From IMG/VR virus record IMGVR_UViG_3300047446_000083, positions 1 through 20,232 of that record: 20,232 bases of DNA; one strand, given 5' to 3'. Every line of letters begins with the position of its first letter. Positions within the stretch are counted from its first letter, which is position 1. Below the pieces are notes generated by a model. The model was given only the letters and a program-made list of their open reading frames with translations, was not told where the DNA came from and made no database searches. Made by a program: the position numbers and the translations under genes. Shown here one piece after another: positions 5,709 through 18,332 of this stretch. The DNA comes from a virus.

Positions 5709-5741
5709 CTGTTTGCTTGAATGCAAATACCAAAAGCAAAT
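5705..5741 (+). promoter_or_regulatory. Repeated palindromic element, copy 1, with downstream half-site
   Basis: The core at 5712-5727, TTTGCTTGAATGCAAA, has perfect arms TTTGC and GCAAA around six bases. TTGACT lies directly before it and overlaps the upstream stop codon. A second half-site, GCAAAT, lies at 5736, exactly 13 bases after the first, and runs into the ATG at 5740. The core ends 12 bases before that ATG. Confidence 0.65.
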
Positions 5742-6415: not shown

Positions 6416-6438
6416 CGTTTGTTTGAATGCAAAAGGAG
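6414..6438 (+). promoter_or_regulatory. Repeated palindromic element, copy 2, fused to a ribosome binding site
   Basis: The core at 6418-6433, TTTGTTTGAATGCAAA, differs from copy 1 at one base. TGAC precedes it and includes the stop of the upstream gene. Its right arm runs straight into the ribosome site as GCAAAAGGAG, and the ATG at 6444 follows five bases later. A transcript starting downstream of the core would lack this ribosome site. The element is therefore not simply the -10 region of a promoter for this gene. Confidence 0.65.
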
Positions 6439-6804: not shown

Positions 6805-9800
6805 ATGAGAATCGACCGACTTTTCACAGCTGGCATCAACTCGCCCTACGACAACATCAAGTTCAAGAAGGCCACCAGCGAGATCAAGAACCCGGACGGC
6901 TCGGTTGTTTTCCGCATGGAGAACATCGAGGTGCCGGCGCATTGGTCGCAGGTTGCCATCGACGTGCTCGCGCAGAAGTACTTCCGCAAGGCCGGCGTCC
7001 CCGACCAGGTCAGCAAGGTAATCGAATCCGGCGTGCCGCATTGGCTCCAACGCTCGGTGCCGTATGCCGGCAACGGCGACCCGGACACGCGCTCTGCGTT
7101 CATGGGCTCTGAGACCTCAGCCAAGCAGGTGTTCGACCGCCTTGCCGGTTGCTGGACCTATTGGGGCTGGAAGGGCGGCTACTTCGCTCCCGAGGGCACC
7201 AAGAAGGGCGACGTCTTCAAGCTGCGCGATGCGGAGGCCAACGCTCTCGCGTTCTTCGACGAGATGCGCTTCATGCTGGCGCAGCAGATGTTCGCGCCCA
7301 ACTCGCCGCAGTGGTTCAACACCGGTCTGCATTGGGCCTACGGCATCGACGGCCCGGCTCAGGGTCACTCCTACGTCGACGACGCGCTCTACCAGGCGCA
7401 CCGGAACGACGACCGCTACCCCAACGTCATGGCGGTGGTGAAGTCGATGAGCGCCTACGAGCGCCCGCAGCCGCACGCCTGCTTCATCCAGGGTATCCAG
7501 GATGATCTCGTCGGTGATGGCGGCATCATGGACCTGTGGACCCGAGAGGCCCGCCTGTTCAAGTACGGCTCAGGCACCGGCTCCAACTTCTCCAGCCTGC
7601 GTGGCAAGGGCGAGAAGCTGTCCGGCGGCGGCCAGTCGTCCGGCGTGATGTCGTTCCTCAAGATCGGTGACCGGGCGGCCGGCGCCATCAAGTCGGGTGG
7701 CACGACGCGCCGCGCCGCCAAGATGGTGGTGCTCGACGTCGATCATCCGGATATCCAGGAGTACATCGGCTGGAAGGTCGAGGAGGAGAAGAAGGTTGCA
7801 GCGCTGGTGGCTGGTTCGAAGGCTGCCAAGAAGCACCTGAAGGCGATCCACGAGGCCTGGGGCGACGGCGAGAGCCGTCAGAGCGACAGCGTGAAGAAGG
7901 CGATCCGAGAGGCTCGCTCTGCCTTCCTGCCGGACAGCTACATCCAGCGCGTCCTGCAGCTCGCTGAAGAAGGTCAGGACTTCGACTTCCCGGAGTTCGA
8001 TGTCGATTGGCAGTCCCCGGCTTACGAGACGGTGTCAGGCCAGAACTCGAACAACACGGTGTCGGTGACCGACGAGTTCCTGAAGCGCGTCGAGACAGAT
8101 GGCCTGTGGGGCCTGAAGGCTCGGACGTCCCCGACCATCGTGAAGACGGTCGAGGCGAAGGCGCTCTGGGATCAGATCTGCCGCGCCGCGTGGGAGTCGG
8201 CTGATCCGGGCCTGCACTTCAACACGACCATGAACGAATGGCACACCTGCCCGGCTGGTGGTCGCATCCGCGCCTCCAACCCGTGCTCGGAGTACATGTT
8301 CCTGGACGACACGGCGTGCAACCTGGCTTCGACCAACCTACTGAAGTTCTTCGGCCGGAACGTCCTGAAGAACGGTGGCCCGATGGAGTTCGACGGTCAG
8401 GCTTACGTCCACGCCTGCCGGCTGATCACCATCATGCTCGAAATCTCGGTGGCGATGGCGCAGTTCCCGTCCAAGGAAATCGCGCTGCTCTCCTACGAGT
8501 ACCGCACCCTCGGCCTCGGCTTCGCCAACCTCGGCGGCCTGCTGATGGCGATGGGTCTGCCGTACGACTCCCGCGAAGGTCGGGCGATGGCTGCCGCCAT
8601 CTCCGCGATCATGACGGGCGTGGCCTACCGCACCTCCGCCGAGATGGCGCGGGAGCTGGGTCCGTTCGTCAAGTTCGAGGAGAACAAGGAGGCGATGCTG
8701 CGCGTGATGGCGAACCATTACGCCGCGGCAGAAGCGGGCTCGACGCAGTTCGAGGGGCTCAGCATCGAGCCTCCGCGGCTGGACTGGGATGCTCTGCCTC
8801 AGAGCGACTTGGCTGGCTCGGCAACCGCGATCTGGGCTGACGTGCTCGACATGGGCATGGCCTATGGGTACCGCAATGCGCAGACGACGGTCGTCGCCCC
8901 GACTGGCACGATCGGACTGCTGATGGATTGCGACACCACGGGCATCGAGCCTGACTTCGCTCTGGTGAAGTTCAAGAGGTTGGCCGGCGGCGGCTACTTC
9001 AAGATCATCAACCAGCAGGTCCCGGCGGCGCTCCGCAAGTTCGGCTACACCGAGGCGCAGATCGACTCGATCTCAAAGTACGCCATCGGCACAGGCGTGC
9101 TGCCGCCAAAGTTCGATCTGGCCCTCCGGGCTGCGTCGATCATCATCAATGAAGCCGAGGTCAAGTCGACCTTCGACATCCGCTTCCTCACGAAGTGGAA
9201 GGATCTCGGGTTCACCGACGCTGAGTTGGAGAAGGCCAACACGGAGGTGTGCGGAACGATGACGCTGGAAGGCGCTCCCGGTCTCAAGCCGGAGCACCAG
9301 GCCATCTTCGACTGCGCAAACCCGTGCGGCAAGCTCGGCAAGCGGTACATCGCGACCGAGGGTCACATCTTGATGATGGCGGCAGTGCAGCCGTTCATCT
9401 CTGGTGCGATCTCCAAGACCATCAACATGCCGAACAGCGCGACCGTTGAGGACGTGTCCAAGGCATACATGATGTCCTGGAAGCTCGGGCTGAAGGCCAA
9501 CGCGATCTATCGCGATGGTTCGAAGCTGTCGCAGCCGCTCAACTCTGCCCTCGTCGACGACGAACCGGCTGGTGATGAACCGGTCGAGACGCCGAAGACG
9601 GTGGTCCAGGTGGTCGAGAAGCTGGTGCGCAAGCGGGAGAAGCTCCCGTCGAAGCGCGGCGGCTACACGCAGAAGGCAATCGTTGGTGGCCACAAGGTCT
9701 ACCTGCGAACCGGCGAATATCCGGACGGTCGGCTGGGTGAAATCTTCATCGACATGCACAAGGAAGGCGCGTCCTTCCGGTCGATGATGAATGCCTTCGC

Positions 9801-10272
9801 CATCGCTGTGAGCCTCGGCTTGCAGTACGGCGTGCCGCTCGACGAGTTCGTCGACGCCTTCACGTTCTTCCGGTTCGAGCCCTCCGGGTTCGTCCAGGAG
9901 CACGACCGCATCCGGCAGGTGACGTCGATCATCGACTTCGTCTTCCGGGACATCGCGATCAGCTATCTCGATCGCGAAGACCTGGCCCATGTCACGCCCG
10001 AGGAGAGCAACCACACGGCGATGGGCACGGGAGTCGGGCAGCCGGCGACGGTGATCAACAACGTGGTGGTCACCAGCGGCGGTGTCGGTACCGAGACCAA
10101 GGTCGAGGTGCAGACGAAGGAAATCGCGGATGCAGCCCCCGACAAGCGGGCTGTCGCCAAGATGTCCGGCTTCACCGGAGACGAGTGCAGCGCCTGCCAC
10201 AGCTTCACGATGGTGCGGAACGGCACCTGCTTGAAGTGCGAGACCTGCGGCGAGACCACGGGCTGCAGCTAA
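6805..10272 (+). CDS. nrdJ: Adenosylcobalamin-dependent (class II) ribonucleoside-diphosphate reductase
   Basis: The 1155-residue protein reduces ribonucleotides to deoxyribonucleotides with a thiyl radical made from adenosylcobalamin, so it needs no oxygen and no NrdB partner. The catalytic site is intact: N492, C494 (thiyl) and E496 in SNPCSEY, with the redox pair C226 (PHACFIQ) and C505 (TACNLAS). [20 protein letters not shown] is the conserved substrate-binding region. A TSCPD-type domain spans roughly residues 950-1080. The end is a zinc-ribbon-like tail with C1128, C1131, C1142, C1145, C1148 and C1154. The N-terminus ([22 protein letters not shown]) and overall length match alphaproteobacterial chromosomal NrdJ, suggesting capture from a host. 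No strong ribosome site is seen before the ATG. ThyA and MazG-like genes in the window fit a shared dNTP role. Confidence 0.97.
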
Positions 10273-10303: not shown

Positions 10304-10320
10304 AACGAACCTTCATGCGT

Positions 10321-10372
10321 GACCATGCGCATGAATGCAAACCGTGCTGGCCGGCAGCCAGCAAACAAAGGA
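10321..10372 (+). promoter_or_regulatory. Repeated palindromic element, copy 5 (most diverged left arm), and downstream half-site
   Basis: The core at 10326-10341, TGCGCATGAATGCAAA, keeps the right part TGAATGCAAA exactly. The left arm has changed, though its TGCGCATG part pairs locally with itself. TGAC precedes it, as in copies 1 and 2. A further GCAAAC at 10361 leads directly into the AAAGGAG ribosome site of the TerB-like gene, giving the same GCAAA-AGGAG junction seen at copy 2. Confidence 0.5.
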
Positions 10373-10380
10373 GAACCAGA

Positions 10381-10818
10381 ATGAGCTTCCTCAAGAACTT
10401 TCTCGCCAAGGCCGAGAAGACCCTCGTCACCTACACGGGCGACAAGGTGTTCCTCGCGGGTGTCGCAGCAGCTGCTGCCAACGTGACCGCGGCTGACGGT
10501 TCGATCGACGACAAGGAGATCGATGCTGCCATCTCCGGCATGCAGGCGAACCCGATCGTCTCCGCCTCCTACACCGGCCCGCAGATCGAGGAGGCGCTCA
10601 ACGTCGCCTTGACCCGCGCCAAGTCCCGCGCCGGCCGCATGGAGAACAAGCGCGCCATCGAGGCCCTCCAGACCCGCGACATCGCAGTGCGCCAGGACGT
10701 CTTCCTGATCGCTGCTGACACCGCCGACCAGGGCGGCATCGGCGCCGAGGAGAAGGTGGTCCTCGTCGAGATCGGCAAGCTGATCAACGTCGACGCCGAC
10801 AAGCTGCTCGCGGCCTGA
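10381..10818 (+). CDS. TerB-like tellurite-resistance family protein
   Basis: The 145-residue protein is all-helical. An acidic motif AADGSIDDKE sits at residues 37-46, with a second loop ADTADQGGIGAEEK near residues 111-124. This is the paired, EF-hand-like metal-binding pattern of TerB proteins, which act at the inner membrane with TerC in bacterial stress and tellurite resistance systems. AAAGGAG lies eight bases before the ATG. It stands with a TerC-family gene between hairpins, so the two probably work as a pair. The exact benefit to a phage is unknown. Membrane-stress defence, superinfection control and metal handling are all possible. Confidence 0.8.
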   Translation: MSFLKNFLAKAEKTLVTYTGDKVFLAGVAAAAANVTAADGSIDDKEIDAAISGMQANPIVSASYTGPQIEEALNVALTRAKSRAGRMENKRAIEALQTRDIAVRQDVFLIAADTADQGGIGAEEKVVLVEIGKLINVDADKLLAA

Positions 10819-10832
10819 TCGTCACACCAACA

Positions 10833-10854
10833 CGGGCGGTCTTCGGGCCGCCCG
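10833..10854 (+). terminator. UUCG-loop hairpin after the TerB-like gene
   Basis: A nine-pair stem (CGGGCGGTC, loop TTCG, GGCCGCCCG, one wobble) is followed by CCCCTTTCCC, the closest of the four hairpins to a T run. It lies 14 bases after the stop and 25 before the terC start, so it may reduce terC expression relative to terB. Confidence 0.65.
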
Positions 10855-10879
10855 CCCCTTTCCCAATTTGGAGTTTTCA

Positions 10880-11548
10880 ATGGACAGCCTCTTCTGGGCC
10901 GCTCTGCTCGGCATCGTGTGGATCGACCTTCTCCTCTCTGGCGACAACGCAGTCGTCATCGCCCTCGTCAGCAACCAGCTTCCGGAGAACCAACGGAAGT
11001 GGGGCATCATCGGCGGCACCGCTGCTGCGGTCGGCCTCCGGGTCGTCATGTCGTTCTTCGCCGCGTTCCTCCTCGGCGTCCCTGCACTGAGCATCATCGG
11101 CGGACTCTTCCTGCTCTGGGTCGCAGCCAAGCTGCTCATGGGCGAAGACGATGAAGCCGGCCCGACCAAGAAGGTCATCAGCCTGGGTGCCGCGATCTGG
11201 ACCATCTCAGTCGCCGACGCCAGCATGAGCCTCGACAACGTCATGGCCATCGCCGCTCTCTCGCACGGCTCAACCTTGCTGATGGCGCTCGGCGTCGTCC
11301 TGTCGATCCCGCTCGTGATCGCCGGCAGCGCAATCATCTCGGCGGTGATCGGACGCTTCCCGATCCTCACCTGGGCTGGCGCGGCTCTGCTGGGCTGGGT
11401 GGCTGGCGGCATCATCGCTGCTGACCCGTGGGCAACTCCGTACGCCAACCACTACCTGGCCTCGGCCGCCGGCACCGTGCTGGTGCTGCTGGTCGGCTGG
11501 GTCTGGCGGCTGCGTGCAGACTCCTCGGTCGCCGATGCGACTGCCTGA
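10880..11548 (+). CDS. TerC-family integral membrane protein
   Basis: The 222-residue protein has about seven hydrophobic helices. Its two signature motifs are SGDNAVVIAL with D22 and N23 in the first helix, and DASMSLDNVMAIA with D113, D119 and N120 in a middle helix. TerC proteins are inner-membrane proteins tied to tellurite resistance, and several are manganese exporters. The paired SxDN motifs are thought to line the ion site. The start ATG at 10880 has TTGGAG upstream; the TTG at 10868 is part of that site. An intracellular loop MGEDDEAGPTKK follows the third helix. It lies just after the TerB-like gene, its usual partner, and overlaps the small gene that follows. Confidence 0.9.
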   Translation: MDSLFWAALLGIVWIDLLLSGDNAVVIALVSNQLPENQRKWGIIGGTAAAVGLRVVMSFFAAFLLGVPALSIIGGLFLLWVAAKLLMGEDDEAGPTKKVISLGAAIWTISVADASMSLDNVMAIAALSHGSTLLMALGVVLSIPLVIAGSAIISAVIGRFPILTWAGAALLGWVAGGIIAADPWATPYANHYLASAAGTVLVLLVGWVWRLRADSSVADATA

Positions 11549-11633
11549 CGCCTTCGATCTGAAGCTCGGCGCTGTAGCGGTGGTGTGGATCCTCTGCGCC
11601 TACGGCATCGCCCGCTGCATCGTCGGGCACTGA
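11535..11633 (+). CDS. 32-residue single-pass membrane peptide
   Basis: This very small gene overlaps the last 14 bases of terC and ends seven bases before a hairpin. The product is MRLPDAFDLKLGAVAVVWIL followed by CAYGIARCIVGH: a short polar N-terminus, one hydrophobic helix of about 20 residues, and two Cys near the C-terminus. The overlap start, clean end before a terminator-like hairpin and membrane pattern support it. It could be a subunit or regulator of TerC. Chance cannot be ruled out at this length. Confidence 0.45.
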   Translation: MRLPDAFDLKLGAVAVVWILCAYGIARCIVGH

Positions 11634-11639
11634 CGACAC

Positions 11640-11661
11640 GGCTGGGGCTTCGGCCCCGGCC
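11640..11661 (+). terminator. UUCG-loop hairpin closing the Ter cassette
   Basis: GGCTGGGGC, loop TTCG, GCCCCGGCC: nine pairs with one wobble, seven bases after the 32-residue peptide gene. No T run follows. It resembles the hairpins at 10282 and 10833 in loop, stem length and wobble, so the three may share an origin. Confidence 0.6.
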
Positions 11662-11692
11662 ACCTTCCCTGAACATCACTGGAGACCTACGC

Positions 11693-12919
11693 ATGATCGA
11701 CGGCGAAAGAAAACTCGCGACCATCAGACGGATCGCTGACATCAATCCGATCCCCGGCGCTGACGCCATCATCCGCCTGACGGTGGATGGCTGGGAGCTG
11801 GTGTCCGCCAAGGACAACGGCTTTCAGATCGGCGACCTGATCGTTTACTTCGAGATCGACTCGTTCCTCCCGGTCATCCCTGCATTCGAGTTCCTGCGCT
11901 CGCGCTGCTACAAGTCGACCGCCCATCTGGGTGAAGGCTTCCGACTGAAGACCATCAAGCTCCGCGGTCAGATCTCGCAGGGCCTGGCAATGCCGCTCGG
12001 CGAGTTCTTCGAACTCAATGAGCAGGACAACAACTGGTACACGCCGAACGGGGTTTGCCTGCAAGAAGGCGACGACGTTACCGACTACATCGGCGTCAAG
12101 AAGTGGGAAGCCGCCCCGGAGCGCGAGGGCAACAGCTTCGGCCCGACCAAGGCCCGCGGCACCTTCCCGTCGTTCCTGCGCAAGACCGATCAGGACCGTG
12201 TCCAGAACTGCTACGGCAAGGTCAAGAGCTGGGCGACCGTCTCGATCCAGAACGAAATCCTGGAGCTGCCGGAAGACGCTGCCATCCCCGATGGCGTCTA
12301 CAAGATGGCCGATGGCCGCTACGTCCGGAAGACGGTCGTGGCGCTGAACGACAACGAGCTGCTGGAGCGCGGTCAGTTTGAGGCCACCCTGAAGCTCGAT
12401 GGCTCGTCGATGACCATCTACAACTACGATGGCCAGTACGGCGTCTGCTCGCGCAATCTCGAACTGAAGCGCGATGCTGAAAACACGTTCTGGAAGACCG
12501 CGATCAACACTCGCATCCTGCCGGCGCTGGTCCACGGTGGCTACAACGTCGCGGTCCAGGGCGAGCTGATGGGTCCGAACATCCAGGGCAACCGCGAGAA
12601 CCTGGCCGTCCATACGTTCTTCATCTTCGACGTGTTCGACATCGATCGTCAGGTCTACCTGGCGCCGGCCGAACGTCTCGAGTTTTTGGTGAAGTTGGCC
12701 AACGAGGGACTCATCGACCTGCAACACTTCAACCGGGTGCCGAACCTGGGCGTCGTGTCGCTCTCGGATTATCCGAGCGTGAAGGACTTCCTCGCCGCGG
12801 CCAACCGCCCCTCGATCTCGCACAAGATCGCCGAGGGCGTCGTCTACAAGTCGATGGTCGAAGGCGGCCCGACCTTCAAGGCGATCAACGACAACTACCT
12901 GCTGGCAGAAGCTGGCTGA
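11693..12919 (+). CDS. DraRnl-type (Rnl5) RNA ligase
   Basis: The 408-residue protein has a lysine nucleotidyltransferase core: K234-L-D-G in EATLKLDGSSMTIY (motif I, the adenylated lysine), FFIFDVF (motif III region), EGVVYKS at residues 381-387 (motif IV) and K396 in FKAIND (motif V). A beta-rich N-terminal region of about 150 residues is consistent with the OB-fold domain that precedes the core in Deinococcus DraRnl. Those ligases seal nicks with a 3'-OH RNA end on a duplex, so the likely job is RNA repair. The start ATG at 11693 follows TGGAGACC; the longer frame to 11585 crosses a hairpin. The next gene starts in a TGATG overlap. Confidence 0.85.
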   Translation: MIDGERKLATIRRIADINPIPGADAIIRLTVDGWELVSAKDNGFQIGDLIVYFEIDSFLPVIPAFEFLRSRCYKSTAHLGEGFRLKTIKLRGQISQGLAMPLGEFFELNEQDNNWYTPNGVCLQEGDDVTDYIGVKKWEAAPEREGNSFGPTKARGTFPSFLRKTDQDRVQNCYGKVKSWATVSIQNEILELPEDAAIPDGVYKMADGRYVRKTVVALNDNELLERGQFEATLKLDGSSMTIYNYDGQYGVCSRNLELKRDAENTFWKTAINTRILPALVHGGYNVAVQGELMGPNIQGNRENLAVHTFFIFDVFDIDRQVYLAPAERLEFLVKLANEGLIDLQHFNRVPNLGVVSLSDYPSVKDFLAAANRPSISHKIAEGVVYKSMVEGGPTFKAINDNYLLAEAG

Positions 12920-14786: not shown

Positions 14787-14832
14787 TTGACGACTCGTTC
14801 GCTTGAATGCAAATAGATAATGCAAACAGGAG
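14787..14832 (+). promoter_or_regulatory. Repeated palindromic element, copy 3, with downstream half-site and ribosome site
   Basis: The core at 14798-14813, TTCGCTTGAATGCAAA, has one left-arm change from copy 1. TTGACG lies at 14787, five bases before the G that precedes the core. A second half-site, GCAAAC, lies at 14822, 13 bases after the first GCAAAT at 14809, the same offset as in copy 1. It passes into CAGGAG, the ribosome site for a TTG start at 14841. Confidence 0.65.
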
Positions 14833-14840
14833 CTATCAAC

Positions 14841-15230
14841 TTGGACGCACAGCAAGCACAATACGCCGCCCTCGGCTTCATCATGGCCGAGCTGGCTCGG
14901 CAGAACGAAATGTGGGGCCCTGCCAACGAGCGCGTTGACGTCTCGAATGGCGAGCTGTTCCAGGCGGGCGTCGCCCAGCTGGACGCCACGTTCGACCGTC
15001 GCAACGGTGAGACGGAAGCCTTCGAGTCTGCCCCTGAGATCTATCCGCAGACGTGGAGCGGCTTCCGCAGCTACGGCGGTGACTTCGCGAACATCGGCGT
15101 CGCGGCCACTTTCCTCGTCCAGGAGATGAAGAGATTGGCGATGAACGGAGAAGATCTCACCCGCCTGAGCCGCACGGCTCAGCAGCCCTACAACCCGGAG
15201 ACGGGTCTCCCCAACCCGGTGACCGCATGA
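14841..15230 (+). CDS. Hypothetical phage protein (129 aa) with TTG start
   Basis: The TTG at 14841 has AGGAG ending eight bases upstream, the best ribosome site of the region. The in-frame ATG at 14820 falls between the two half-sites of the regulatory element and lacks a ribosome site. The protein pattern is RQNEMWGPANERVDVSNGEL near the N-terminus, then YPQTWSGFRSYGGDFANIG, then a helix AATFLVQEMKRLAMNGED. It faintly recalls phage proteins that carry an ER..Q..W...G.L..A pattern near nucleotide-metabolism genes, but I cannot name a family with confidence. It is coupled to the next gene by ATGA. Confidence 0.55.
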   Translation: MDAQQAQYAALGFIMAELARQNEMWGPANERVDVSNGELFQAGVAQLDATFDRRNGETEAFESAPEIYPQTWSGFRSYGGDFANIGVAATFLVQEMKRLAMNGEDLTRLSRTAQQPYNPETGLPNPVTA

Positions 15231-15346
15231 TCGGCATCTTCCTGCTGAACCACGTCCTCGACGCGCTCGGCCTCTGGTACGCCCTGTCCGTCTGCTGGAA
15301 GCTCGCGAAGTTCAAGAAGTACGGGTTCTTCCGCGCTTTTTGGTGA
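15227..15346 (+). CDS. 39-residue membrane-type peptide
   Basis: A small gene starting in an ATGA overlap with the preceding stop. The product begins MIGIFLLNHVLDALGLWYAL, a hydrophobic stretch of about 24 residues, and ends in a basic and aromatic tail (WKLAKFKKYGFFRAFW). This is a single-helix peptide with a cationic, cytoplasm-facing end. It ends seven bases before copy 4 of the repeated element. Whether it is translated is inferred from coupling only; a holin-like role is possible. Confidence 0.45.
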   Translation: MIGIFLLNHVLDALGLWYALSVCWKLAKFKKYGFFRAFW

Positions 15347-15352
15347 TCTACC

Positions 15353-15370
15353 GTTTGTTCAAAAGCAAAC
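15353..15370 (+). promoter_or_regulatory. Repeated palindromic element, copy 4
   Basis: The core at 15354-15369 is TTTGTTCAAAAGCAAA, with TTTG and GCAAA arms kept and central bases changed. With its flanks it forms CGTTTG, eight bases, CAAACG, the best-arm palindrome of the set. GTTCGTTTTTT follows, and no second half-site lies 13 bases downstream. Confidence 0.55.
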
Positions 15371-15386
15371 GTTCGTTTTTTGGAGA

Positions 15387-15416
15387 GCGGGCCCCCTAGT
15401 GGGGCTCGCAAAAGGA
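15387..15416 (+). promoter_or_regulatory. Leader hairpin beside the ribosome site of the TAXI-like gene
   Basis: GCGGGCCCC, loop CTAGT, GGGGCTCGC: nine pairs with one wobble, ending at 15409. AAAAGGAG begins one base later and the ATG is at 15423. The foot of the stem abuts the ribosome site, so it could limit or time translation. It has no T run after it. The T6 tract lies on the wrong side for a terminator on this strand. Confidence 0.5.
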
Positions 15417-15422
15417 GACCAC

Positions 15423-16304
15423 ATGAAGAAGCTGTTTTTGTTGATCGCTGCCGCGACCCTCGGTCTGTCGGCTGCAAGCTCGGCTCAGGCCGCCGAGAAG
15501 TTCCGCCTCTGCACCGGCAATGCCAAGCTGAACTACTACGCCGCCGGCCAGCACCTGAAGCGCCACGCCGGCAACGTCGATGTCGTCGAGACCAAGGGCT
15601 CGCTGGACAACCTCGACAAGGTCACGGCTGGTGAGTGCGACGGCGCCTTCGTCCAGAACGATGCCCTGCTCGTCTACGCGCAACGCAACGCGAAGGCCAT
15701 CTCGGCCCTGCAGCGTGCCGGCGTGCTCTACCAGGAGCAGGCGAACCTGCTCTGCAACCGCAAAGCCTACACGTCGTCCCGCATGGTCGACCTGAACTCC
15801 AACTTCACGGTCGCGATCGGCCCCGATGGCTCTGGCGCCAACACCACCTGGGCCGCCTTCGTTGCCGCCGACAAGGCTCGCTACGGCAAGGTCCGCACGT
15901 CCGACCTGACCGGCACCCTCGCGCTCAGCGCCGTCAACGACGGTTCGGAAGTGCAGTGCGCTCTCATCATCACCGCGCTCAATGCCTCGATGCTCAAGAA
16001 CGAAGCCCCGAAGTATGCGAGCGGCCTGGTGCTGGTCGAGACCGACGACCGCGACATGACGAAGAACGCCAAGGATGCCCGCAACAACCCGGTCTACACC
16101 TACGGTGAGATCCCGGCCGGCACGTACAAGGGCATCCAGCCCTCCGGCATGTTCGGCTCCAAGTCGGTAGCCACCATCCAGGTTGATGCCGTGTTCGTCG
16201 CCAACCGTGACTGGGTCGCAGCCCACACCAGCGACTTCGAGAAGATCGTCGACGGCTTCGCCAACGCCAAGCCCGACATCGAGAAGCTGGTCCAGCCGAA
16301 GTAA
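15423..16304 (+). CDS. Exported TAXI-like periplasmic substrate-binding protein
   Basis: The 293-residue protein begins with a classic signal peptide: MKK, a hydrophobic core to residue 18, and an AQA-A cleavage site after A23. The mature part has features of TAXI-type solute receptors of TRAP transporters: a ligand loop near LYQEQANLLCNR, KGSLDNLDKVTAGECDGAFVQND, and VAIGPDGSGANTTWAAF. It lacks the long C-terminal extensions of some receptors. No TRAP membrane subunit gene is visible nearby, so it would act alone in the periplasm. The reason a phage-like element carries it is unknown. It could modify the envelope or nutrient uptake, or be a host gene picked up on excision. Confidence in the family is moderate. 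Confidence 0.75.
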   Translation: MKKLFLLIAAATLGLSAASSAQAAEKFRLCTGNAKLNYYAAGQHLKRHAGNVDVVETKGSLDNLDKVTAGECDGAFVQNDALLVYAQRNAKAISALQRAGVLYQEQANLLCNRKAYTSSRMVDLNSNFTVAIGPDGSGANTTWAAFVAADKARYGKVRTSDLTGTLALSAVNDGSEVQCALIITALNASMLKNEAPKYASGLVLVETDDRDMTKNAKDARNNPVYTYGEIPAGTYKGIQPSGMFGSKSVATIQVDAVFVANRDWVAAHTSDFEKIVDGFANAKPDIEKLVQPK

Positions 16305-16312
16305 CGGACCCC

Positions 16313-16346
16313 GACGCGCCCCCGATGTTCCTGTCTGGGGCGCGTC
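16313..16346 (+). terminator. Perfect 10-bp hairpin after the TAXI-like gene
   Basis: GACGCGCCCC and GGGGCGCGTC pair without mismatch across a 14-base loop, eight bases after the stop. No T run follows. It is the strongest stem in the window and lies 10 bases before the next ATG. Confidence 0.6.
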
Positions 16347-17240: not shown

Positions 17241-17478
17241 GGCGGCACTGAACACGACCGAGGTGAAGTTCCTTCCGCCGGAGGAAGTCGGCGAGGAGCT
17301 GTCAGGATGGTGGATCCTCCAGCTGGAGCTGGAAGGCTGCTGGGACGCCATCGGTCCCTACGACAGCAAGGAAGAAGCTGCACGTCTCGCCAACCCCGCC
17401 CCTCAACCCTGCCCGCAAGCACGACACGGAGACTGGTGCGTCTGGCCCCGCTGCGACTGCACCAAGGAAACCCAATGA
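17233..17478 (+). CDS. Small Cys- and Trp-rich hypothetical protein (81 aa)
   Basis: The ATG at 17233 overlaps the end of the previous gene by eight bases, and its stop overlaps the ThyA start. The first part is acidic with [20 protein letters not shown], a likely folded beta-type core. The last 25 residues hold several Cys and Trp ([19 protein letters not shown]), a possible metal-binding end. I do not recognise the family. Confidence 0.5.
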
Positions 17479-18332
17479 AGCAATATCACGATCTGCTCGA
17501 CAAAATCCTGACCGAAGGCGTCCAGAAGGGCGACCGCACCGGCACCGGGACGATCTCTATCTTCGGTCACCAGATGCGTTTCGATCTGAGTGAGGGCTTC
17601 CCGATGCTCACGACGAAGCGCCTGCCGTTCAAGGCCATCGCTGTCGAGTTGCTCTGGTTCCTGCGCGGCGACACCAACATCAAGTTTCTGCATGACCATG
17701 GCGTCACCATCTGGGACGAGTGGGCGGATGCCAACGGTGATCTCGGCCCGGTATACGGCAAGCAGTGGCGGTCGTGGCCGTCGTTCGAGCAGACCGGTGC
17801 TATGACCATCAACCATGGTGAGCATTTCGGTAAGATCCTGAGCGTTGGTTTCACCAAGTCCATCGACCAGATCGCCAACGTCGTCGATCAGATCAAGCGC
17901 AATCCCAACTCGCGCCGCCTGATGGTCACCGCCTGGAACCCGGCAGAGGTTGACCAGATGGCGCTGCCGCCCTGCCACTGCCTCTTCCAGTTCTACGTGG
18001 CTAACGGCAAGCTGTCCTGCCAACTGTACCAGCGATCGGCAGACGTCTTCCTCGGCGTTCCATTCAACATCGCCTCGTACGCCCTGCTGACGATGATGAT
18101 CGCCCATGTGACGGGTCTGCAGCCTGGTGACTTCGTGCATTCGTTCGGCGACACGCACCTGTATCTGAACCACATCGAGCAGGCGAAGCTCCAGCTCACC
18201 CGGGAGACGCGCGCTCTGCCTCGCGTGACCTTCAACCAGGCGATGGACAGCATCTTCGGCTTCCAGCTCGAAGACATGCAGCTCCAGGGATACGACCCCC
18301 ACCCTGGCATCAAGGCGGAGGTCTCCGTATGA
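17475..18332 (+). CDS. thyA: Thymidylate synthase
   Basis: The 285-residue enzyme methylates dUMP to dTMP with methylenetetrahydrofolate. The catalytic Cys is C167 in [11 protein letters not shown]. Other hallmarks are [18 protein letters not shown], the phosphate-binding [12 protein letters not shown] and [20 protein letters not shown], and [12 protein letters not shown]. The C-terminus has [14 protein letters not shown]. It is 21 residues longer than E. coli ThyA, because of a segment after the [10 protein letters not shown] region ([22 protein letters not shown]). Insertions there are known in other bacteria. The ATG at 17475 overlaps the preceding stop. It belongs with NrdJ and the MazG-like genes in dNTP supply, and the next gene is coupled by ATGA. 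Confidence 0.96.

Follow-up and report, generated by a model that had tools for sequence, protein, structure and literature searches.

A phage-encoded TAXI-type binding protein found without transporter genes may form a two-gene envelope module with an adjacent micropeptide

Analysis of a 20,232-base stretch of soil phage DNA (hereafter the window, which is the whole IMG/VR record) revealed that the gene at 15423..16304 (+ strand) encodes a solute-binding protein with the TAXI fold and a conserved ligand pocket, which belongs to a clade separate from other bacterial TAXIs, is not accompanied by transporter genes, and adjoins a gene for a tiny hydrophobic protein. We propose, with a probability of roughly 0.4, that this TAXI gene belongs to a two-gene envelope module dedicated to the phage, of which it would provide one half. 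A periplasmic TAXI protein with an amino-acid (glutamate/glutamine-like) pocket would be exported during infection and, instead of using a TRAP transporter of its own, would contact a tiny inner-membrane protein produced from the adjacent gene; once loaded with ligand, and aided by this micropeptide, it would dock on a permease of the host inner membrane, adding high-affinity uptake during host takeover. Our confidence is high regarding the anatomy of the module, and moderate to low regarding any specific function.

The TAXI gene (ATG at 15423, stop at 16304) codes for a 293-aa protein of the NMT1_3 type, with a ribosome-binding site, AAGGAG (15412..15417, + strand), located just 5' of the open reading frame. 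Residues 1-23 (15423..15491, + strand) constitute a predicted Sec signal peptide, MKKLFLLIAAATLGLSAASSAQA followed by AEKF (SAQA and AE at the junction), in which a clear n-h-c region and an AXA site, and no lipobox, were read by eye; from these features, we infer that the protein is exported. The protein matched PF16868 (NMT1_3) above the cut-off (46 bits, cut-off 27) and TIGR02122 (TRAP_TAXI) below it (E 1.7e-14, 53 vs 84 bits), and further matches were obtained with phrog_6856, annotated as 'unknown function' (E 3e-89), and with the PDB TAXI chains 1us4, 8u79, 8s4j and 9ibo (E about 1e-4 to 3e-5). An AlphaFold2 model based on an alignment of 39 homologues reached a pLDDT of 90.9, with low values at residues 1-20 of the signal peptide; in a Foldseek comparison against the PDB, the best 7 matches were all TAXI receptors (TM-score about 0.7, several with bound glutamate), after which the TM-score falls to about 0.5. 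Hence, the exported TAXI-like binding protein described in the initial annotation was borne out by its signal peptide, its PF16868 match and its fold, and the unrelated fold considered there as an alternative was not found. Furthermore, dN/dS values of 0.13-0.43 against relatives indicate purifying selection on the gene.

In VcGluP, residues Y45, Q93 and E125 touch the amino group of the ligand, and affinity is dominated by Y45 and Q93 (PMC11574862). By alignment, these residues were equated with Y38, Q78 and E105 of the window protein, whose codons lie on the + strand at 15534..15536, 15654..15656 and 15735..15737, respectively, and which represent 3 of only 7 invariant columns among 39 diverse sequences. 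The whole Y/Q/E triad was kept in 44/44 phage-type TAXIs vs 23/33 bacterial ones (p = 8e-5, a guide only, because the sequences share descent). This conservation favours ligand binding, and the simplest reading would be that binding matters to the function of the protein in the phage. An amino acid is the probable ligand, with glutamate or glutamine as our best guess. Phages recruit binding folds into their particles, and the TAXI protein could accordingly be thought of as a structural or receptor-binding virion component exploiting this fold; however, such a role is highly improbable for a protein with a cleavable signal peptide and a conserved pocket, encoded among nucleotide-metabolism or tRNA genes and not among structural genes.

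In fold (TM about 0.7), signal peptide, triad and size, the phage protein resembles the TAXI-type TRAP binding proteins (VcGluP/VC0430, TtGluBP 1US4/1US5, PF16868), but it differs from them in lacking a TRAP membrane subunit, in scoring below the TIGR02122 cut-off, in forming a separate clade and in having a tiny hydrophobic neighbour. The absence of nearby TRAP membrane genes, already pointed out in the initial annotation, was confirmed in the whole window and in 47 related phage or viral records, none of which contained DctM (PF06808), with control genomes being positive. The records searched included the complete genome of Bradyrhizobium phage BDU-MI-1 together with IMG/VR relatives in the size range of 114-122 kb, and TRAP genes lying just beyond the window, the circumstance that could have overturned that observation, were thus ruled out (0/47). 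Likewise, a phage-encoded GltS partner (PF03616) was ruled out, with no match above the cut-off in 46 records and one sub-threshold match containing stop codons.

TAXI proteins are able to serve non-TRAP permeases, as described for the TAXI-GltS system of Bordetella pertussis (BP0403/BP0402; PMC12344293), which shares with the phage loci a TAXI protein devoid of a TRAP membrane component; nevertheless, gltS is adjacent in that system, and its extra N-terminal domain is missing from the phage TAXIs. A second precedent is the PstS of cyanophages, a phage-borne periplasmic binding protein without transporter genes of its own, which groups with the PstS of its hosts and has been linked to undelayed lysis under phosphate starvation (PMC10976474). 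Both precedents, together with the retention of the pocket, lead us to favour a role in uptake by way of a host permease. The PstS precedent would also fit the plain replacement of a host protein, where the phage TAXI would feed the host TAXI-TRAP system while host mRNA is degraded, with the tiny ORF being incidental. Although one strong TRAP_fused gene adjoins a TAXI gene in Bradyrhizobium hipponense, this replacement appears unlikely, as the tiny ORF is strongly enriched beside TAXI and the TAXIs of phages branch separately from those of hosts; moreover, two Methylobacterium genomes carrying TAXI relatives had no TAXI-type TRAP membrane protein (TRAP_fused) above the cut-off, a result that also counts against the uptake module.

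Regarding phylogeny, a tree of 77 sequences placed the 44 phage-type TAXIs and two chromosomal orphans in one clade with a support of 0.93, to the exclusion of 31 other bacterial TAXIs; this tree is a sample and not a survey, since the phage-type set includes a few bacterial contig/MAG loci of putative phage origin, and the bacterial set covers the alphaproteobacterial TAXIs sampled, mostly picked as best-scoring. Phage TAXIs thus differ from a host-derived, PstS-like auxiliary metabolic gene: the phosphate-binding PstS falls together with the PstS of the hosts, whereas the phage TAXIs form their own clade in phages of Alpha- and Gammaproteobacteria, and such a clade spanning unrelated hosts is odd for a plain feeder of host permeases, which weighs against the uptake module. 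Among 289 alphaproteobacterial genomes, only 4 contained a copy scoring >100 bits against the phage TAXI model, with ordinary TAXIs at 91 or less. The two orphans (L189 and L190) were located in apparently non-phage regions of alphaproteobacterial chromosomes, and may be ancestors or domesticated copies of the phage genes.

Directly upstream of the TAXI gene, at 15227..15346 (+ strand), a tiny hydrophobic ORF of 39 aa (MIGIFLLNHVLDALGLWYALSVCWKLAKFKKYGFFRAFW) was identified, whose product is the putative inner-membrane partner; this ORF was absent from the initial annotation. Its ATG overlaps the stop of the preceding gene (ATGA), and the peptide displays a predicted single helix (residues 2-32, pLDDT 77) and a basic C-terminus. 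It belongs to a family of 12 (...NHxLDGLG...RRWFF) with N8, H9, L11, G15, K25, R36 and F38 invariant. Within this family, the window copy has diverged the most, with pairwise dN/dS values of about 0.5-1.3; the dN/dS of the micropeptide is weakly purifying, and is near 1 for the window copy. EBPR siphovirus 2 shares DNA similarity with the window region over TAXI only, yet it carries a ...RRWFF micropeptide upstream of TAXI. In Agrobacterium, Rhizobium, Klebsiella, Pseudomonas and enterobacterial phages or prophages, a small hydrophobic ORF of different sequence lies downstream of TAXI, often overlapping its stop, and in Erwinia phages such an ORF is found upstream.

By one mechanical rule, a tiny hydrophobic ORF (30-65 aa) directly adjoined TAXI in 28/45 loci dereplicated at 85%, vs 12/145 control genes, namely the remaining large ORFs in these loci (p = 6e-13), an association that is not universal and was obtained with phylogenetically related loci and a simple ORF caller. 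The excess remained significant without the start-context requirement and at four hydrophobicity thresholds (p from 1e-14 to 1e-6). The window itself escapes this rule, and a candidate is visible on inspection in some of the other loci that it misses. A single micropeptide family was discarded by HH comparison, in which relatedness was supported among gammaproteobacterial phage groups only (entero-lana 91%) and homology to the micropeptides of alphaproteobacterial phages was undetectable. This undetected homology counts against the uptake module, as do the non-universal association, the weak dN/dS signal, and the fact that the micropeptide offers hardly any periplasmic segment on which TAXI could dock.

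Related TAXI genes, sought in other phages by tblastn and IMG/VR scans, were found in >100 phage and prophage records of Alpha- and Gammaproteobacteria. The tblastn search yielded 51 phage records, including phages of Bradyrhizobium, EBPR siphovirus 2, phages of Agrobacterium, Rhizobium, Sinorhizobium and Pseudomonas, Klebsiella and Erwinia jumbo phages, and Vibrio phages, among others, and the IMG/VR scans yielded >100 TAXI loci. A literature search on phage TAXI genes retrieved no study of the family, which is catalogued only as a PHROG of unknown function or under scattered 'TAXI' annotations. The gene was detected in 3 of 5,426 complete E. coli genomes; in the one prophage examined (strain MLI106K4), TAXI and a 49-aa ORF lie between DUF1133/tRNA-Thr and the holin/endolysin genes, which we take to be a slot where lambdoid phages carry morons, and in jumbo phages the TAXI gene is located among tRNA genes. 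Such moron-like positions lend support to the cargo-gene status suggested in the initial annotation.

These positions also fit superinfection exclusion or envelope protection, a close rival of uptake, in which TAXI and the micropeptide would occupy or block an inner-membrane protein used by other phages or colicins, with the ligand holding the TAXI conformation. P1 SimABC and other superinfection-exclusion morons are small non-structural phage or prophage genes acting in the envelope, and they are comparable to the TAXI module by its proposed role, the latter having a solute-binding protein fold and a conserved ligand pocket. In favour of exclusion, TAXI genes are present in prophages of several genera, and phrog_1470 ('TciB-like inhibition of cell division or resistance to colicin') was matched at E 1.5e-19 by the micropeptide of Erwinia phages; P1 tciA-C were scored non-essential by CRISPRi (PMC10695390). 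The P1 tciA-tciB-tciC genes resemble the module in that a tiny hydrophobic protein is encoded within a moron region rich in tRNA genes, but the TciB-like peptide of P1 adjoins a TerB homologue and no TAXI; therefore, some of these peptides may serve another function, which counts against the uptake module. The window micropeptide had no PHROG match. Against exclusion, the TciB label comes from homology only, a mere blocker would have no need of an amino-group triad conserved in 44/44 sequences, TAXI genes also occur in large lytic-type phages, and a known defence system was not recognized by PADLOC in five TAXI representatives (0 matches). Exclusion is thus possible, if somewhat doubtful. In enterobacterial prophages, TAXI immediately precedes the holin-endolysin cassette, a location that would instead fit a sensor of host nutrition or of lysis timing, with the liganded protein signalling via the micropeptide or the phage holin; this appears quite improbable, as TAXI lies far from lysis genes in Bradyrhizobium and jumbo phages and the micropeptide is devoid of sensor and effector domains.

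Concerning the surroundings of the gene, the best DNA match of the window over the region examined was phage BDU-MI-1 (121 kb), with which it shares the gene order class II ribonucleotide reductase, TAXI, integrase. In the window, TAXI lies between the class II B12-dependent ribonucleotide reductase (6805-10272) and the thymidylate synthase ThyA (17466-18332), and a radical SAM enzyme truncated by the contig start occupies 2-925 (PF04055 barely over the cut-off). About 4 kb upstream of TAXI, at 10315-11548, a TerB-like ORF (phrog_632 'tellurite resistance', E 9e-19; below Pfam sensitivity) precedes the gene of TerC, an integral-membrane protein (PF03741, 145 bits). In Erwinia phage Caitlin, TerB immediately borders the TAXI region, and it is near TAXI in two other loci (L042 and L047); nevertheless, it was found in 5/44 records, so a TerB/TerC partnership is not general and was rejected as obligatory. 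In Rhizobium phage RHph_I1_18, the TAXI, RNA ligase and thymidylate synthase region is located between two von Willebrand factor A domain proteins (1309-2742 and 11201-12304).

Upstream of TAXI, a 20-bp inverted-repeat element, CGTTTGTTCAAAAGCAAACG (CGTTTG-TTCAAAAG-CAAACG), was located at 15352..15371. It is one of four related copies of CGTTTGYTYGAAWGCAAACG on the + strand of the window (5710-5729, 6416-6435, 14796-14815 and 15352-15371; 0 expected in shuffles), each close upstream of a gene, and its 8-bp stem followed by a T-rich tail is terminator-like by consensus. The element is likely a phage operator, or a promoter-associated or mRNA-leader signal; given its four copies, it represents a shared phage signal and not one private to the TAXI gene. 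A leader hairpin (15387..15409, + strand; leader MFE -29.4, z about -3.2) lies directly upstream of the ribosome-binding site, and a 3' hairpin (16313..16346, + strand; -25.8 kcal/mol, z -3.1) lies past the stop codon, both being more stable than shuffles (z about -3.1 each). In several relatives, the leader position is occupied by a hairpin with another sequence, and in others the hairpin there is weak or missing; no clear T tract accompanies the 3' hairpin in the window, although T tracts are present in relatives such as BDU-MI-1. Thus, both hairpins noted in the initial annotation proved sound, and the regulatory element that it assigned to TAXI is real without being exclusive to this gene. 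Its view of TAXI as independently controlled is weakened because the tiny membrane-protein gene precedes TAXI and the upstream repeat also precedes other phage genes.

Beyond the uptake module, we tentatively entertain a wider possibility, namely that an undescribed and ancient two-gene system is present in unrelated phages of Alpha- and Gammaproteobacteria, in which TAXI, as a periplasmic amino-acid-binding protein, would have an inner-membrane micropeptide of 37-60 aa as its membrane partner in place of a transporter, and the two would jointly re-programme an inner-membrane protein of the host depending on the ligand, be it for uptake, exclusion or signalling. As TAXI relatives are present in E. 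coli prophages, these proposals are testable in laboratory E. coli. Solute-binding proteins are regarded as transporter parts; if our proposal is true, the phage TAXIs would represent a second working mode for these proteins, in which the binding residues are kept, no transporter is encoded and a micropeptide gene is often adjacent, and they would define a novel class of morons with which phages act on the envelope of the host.
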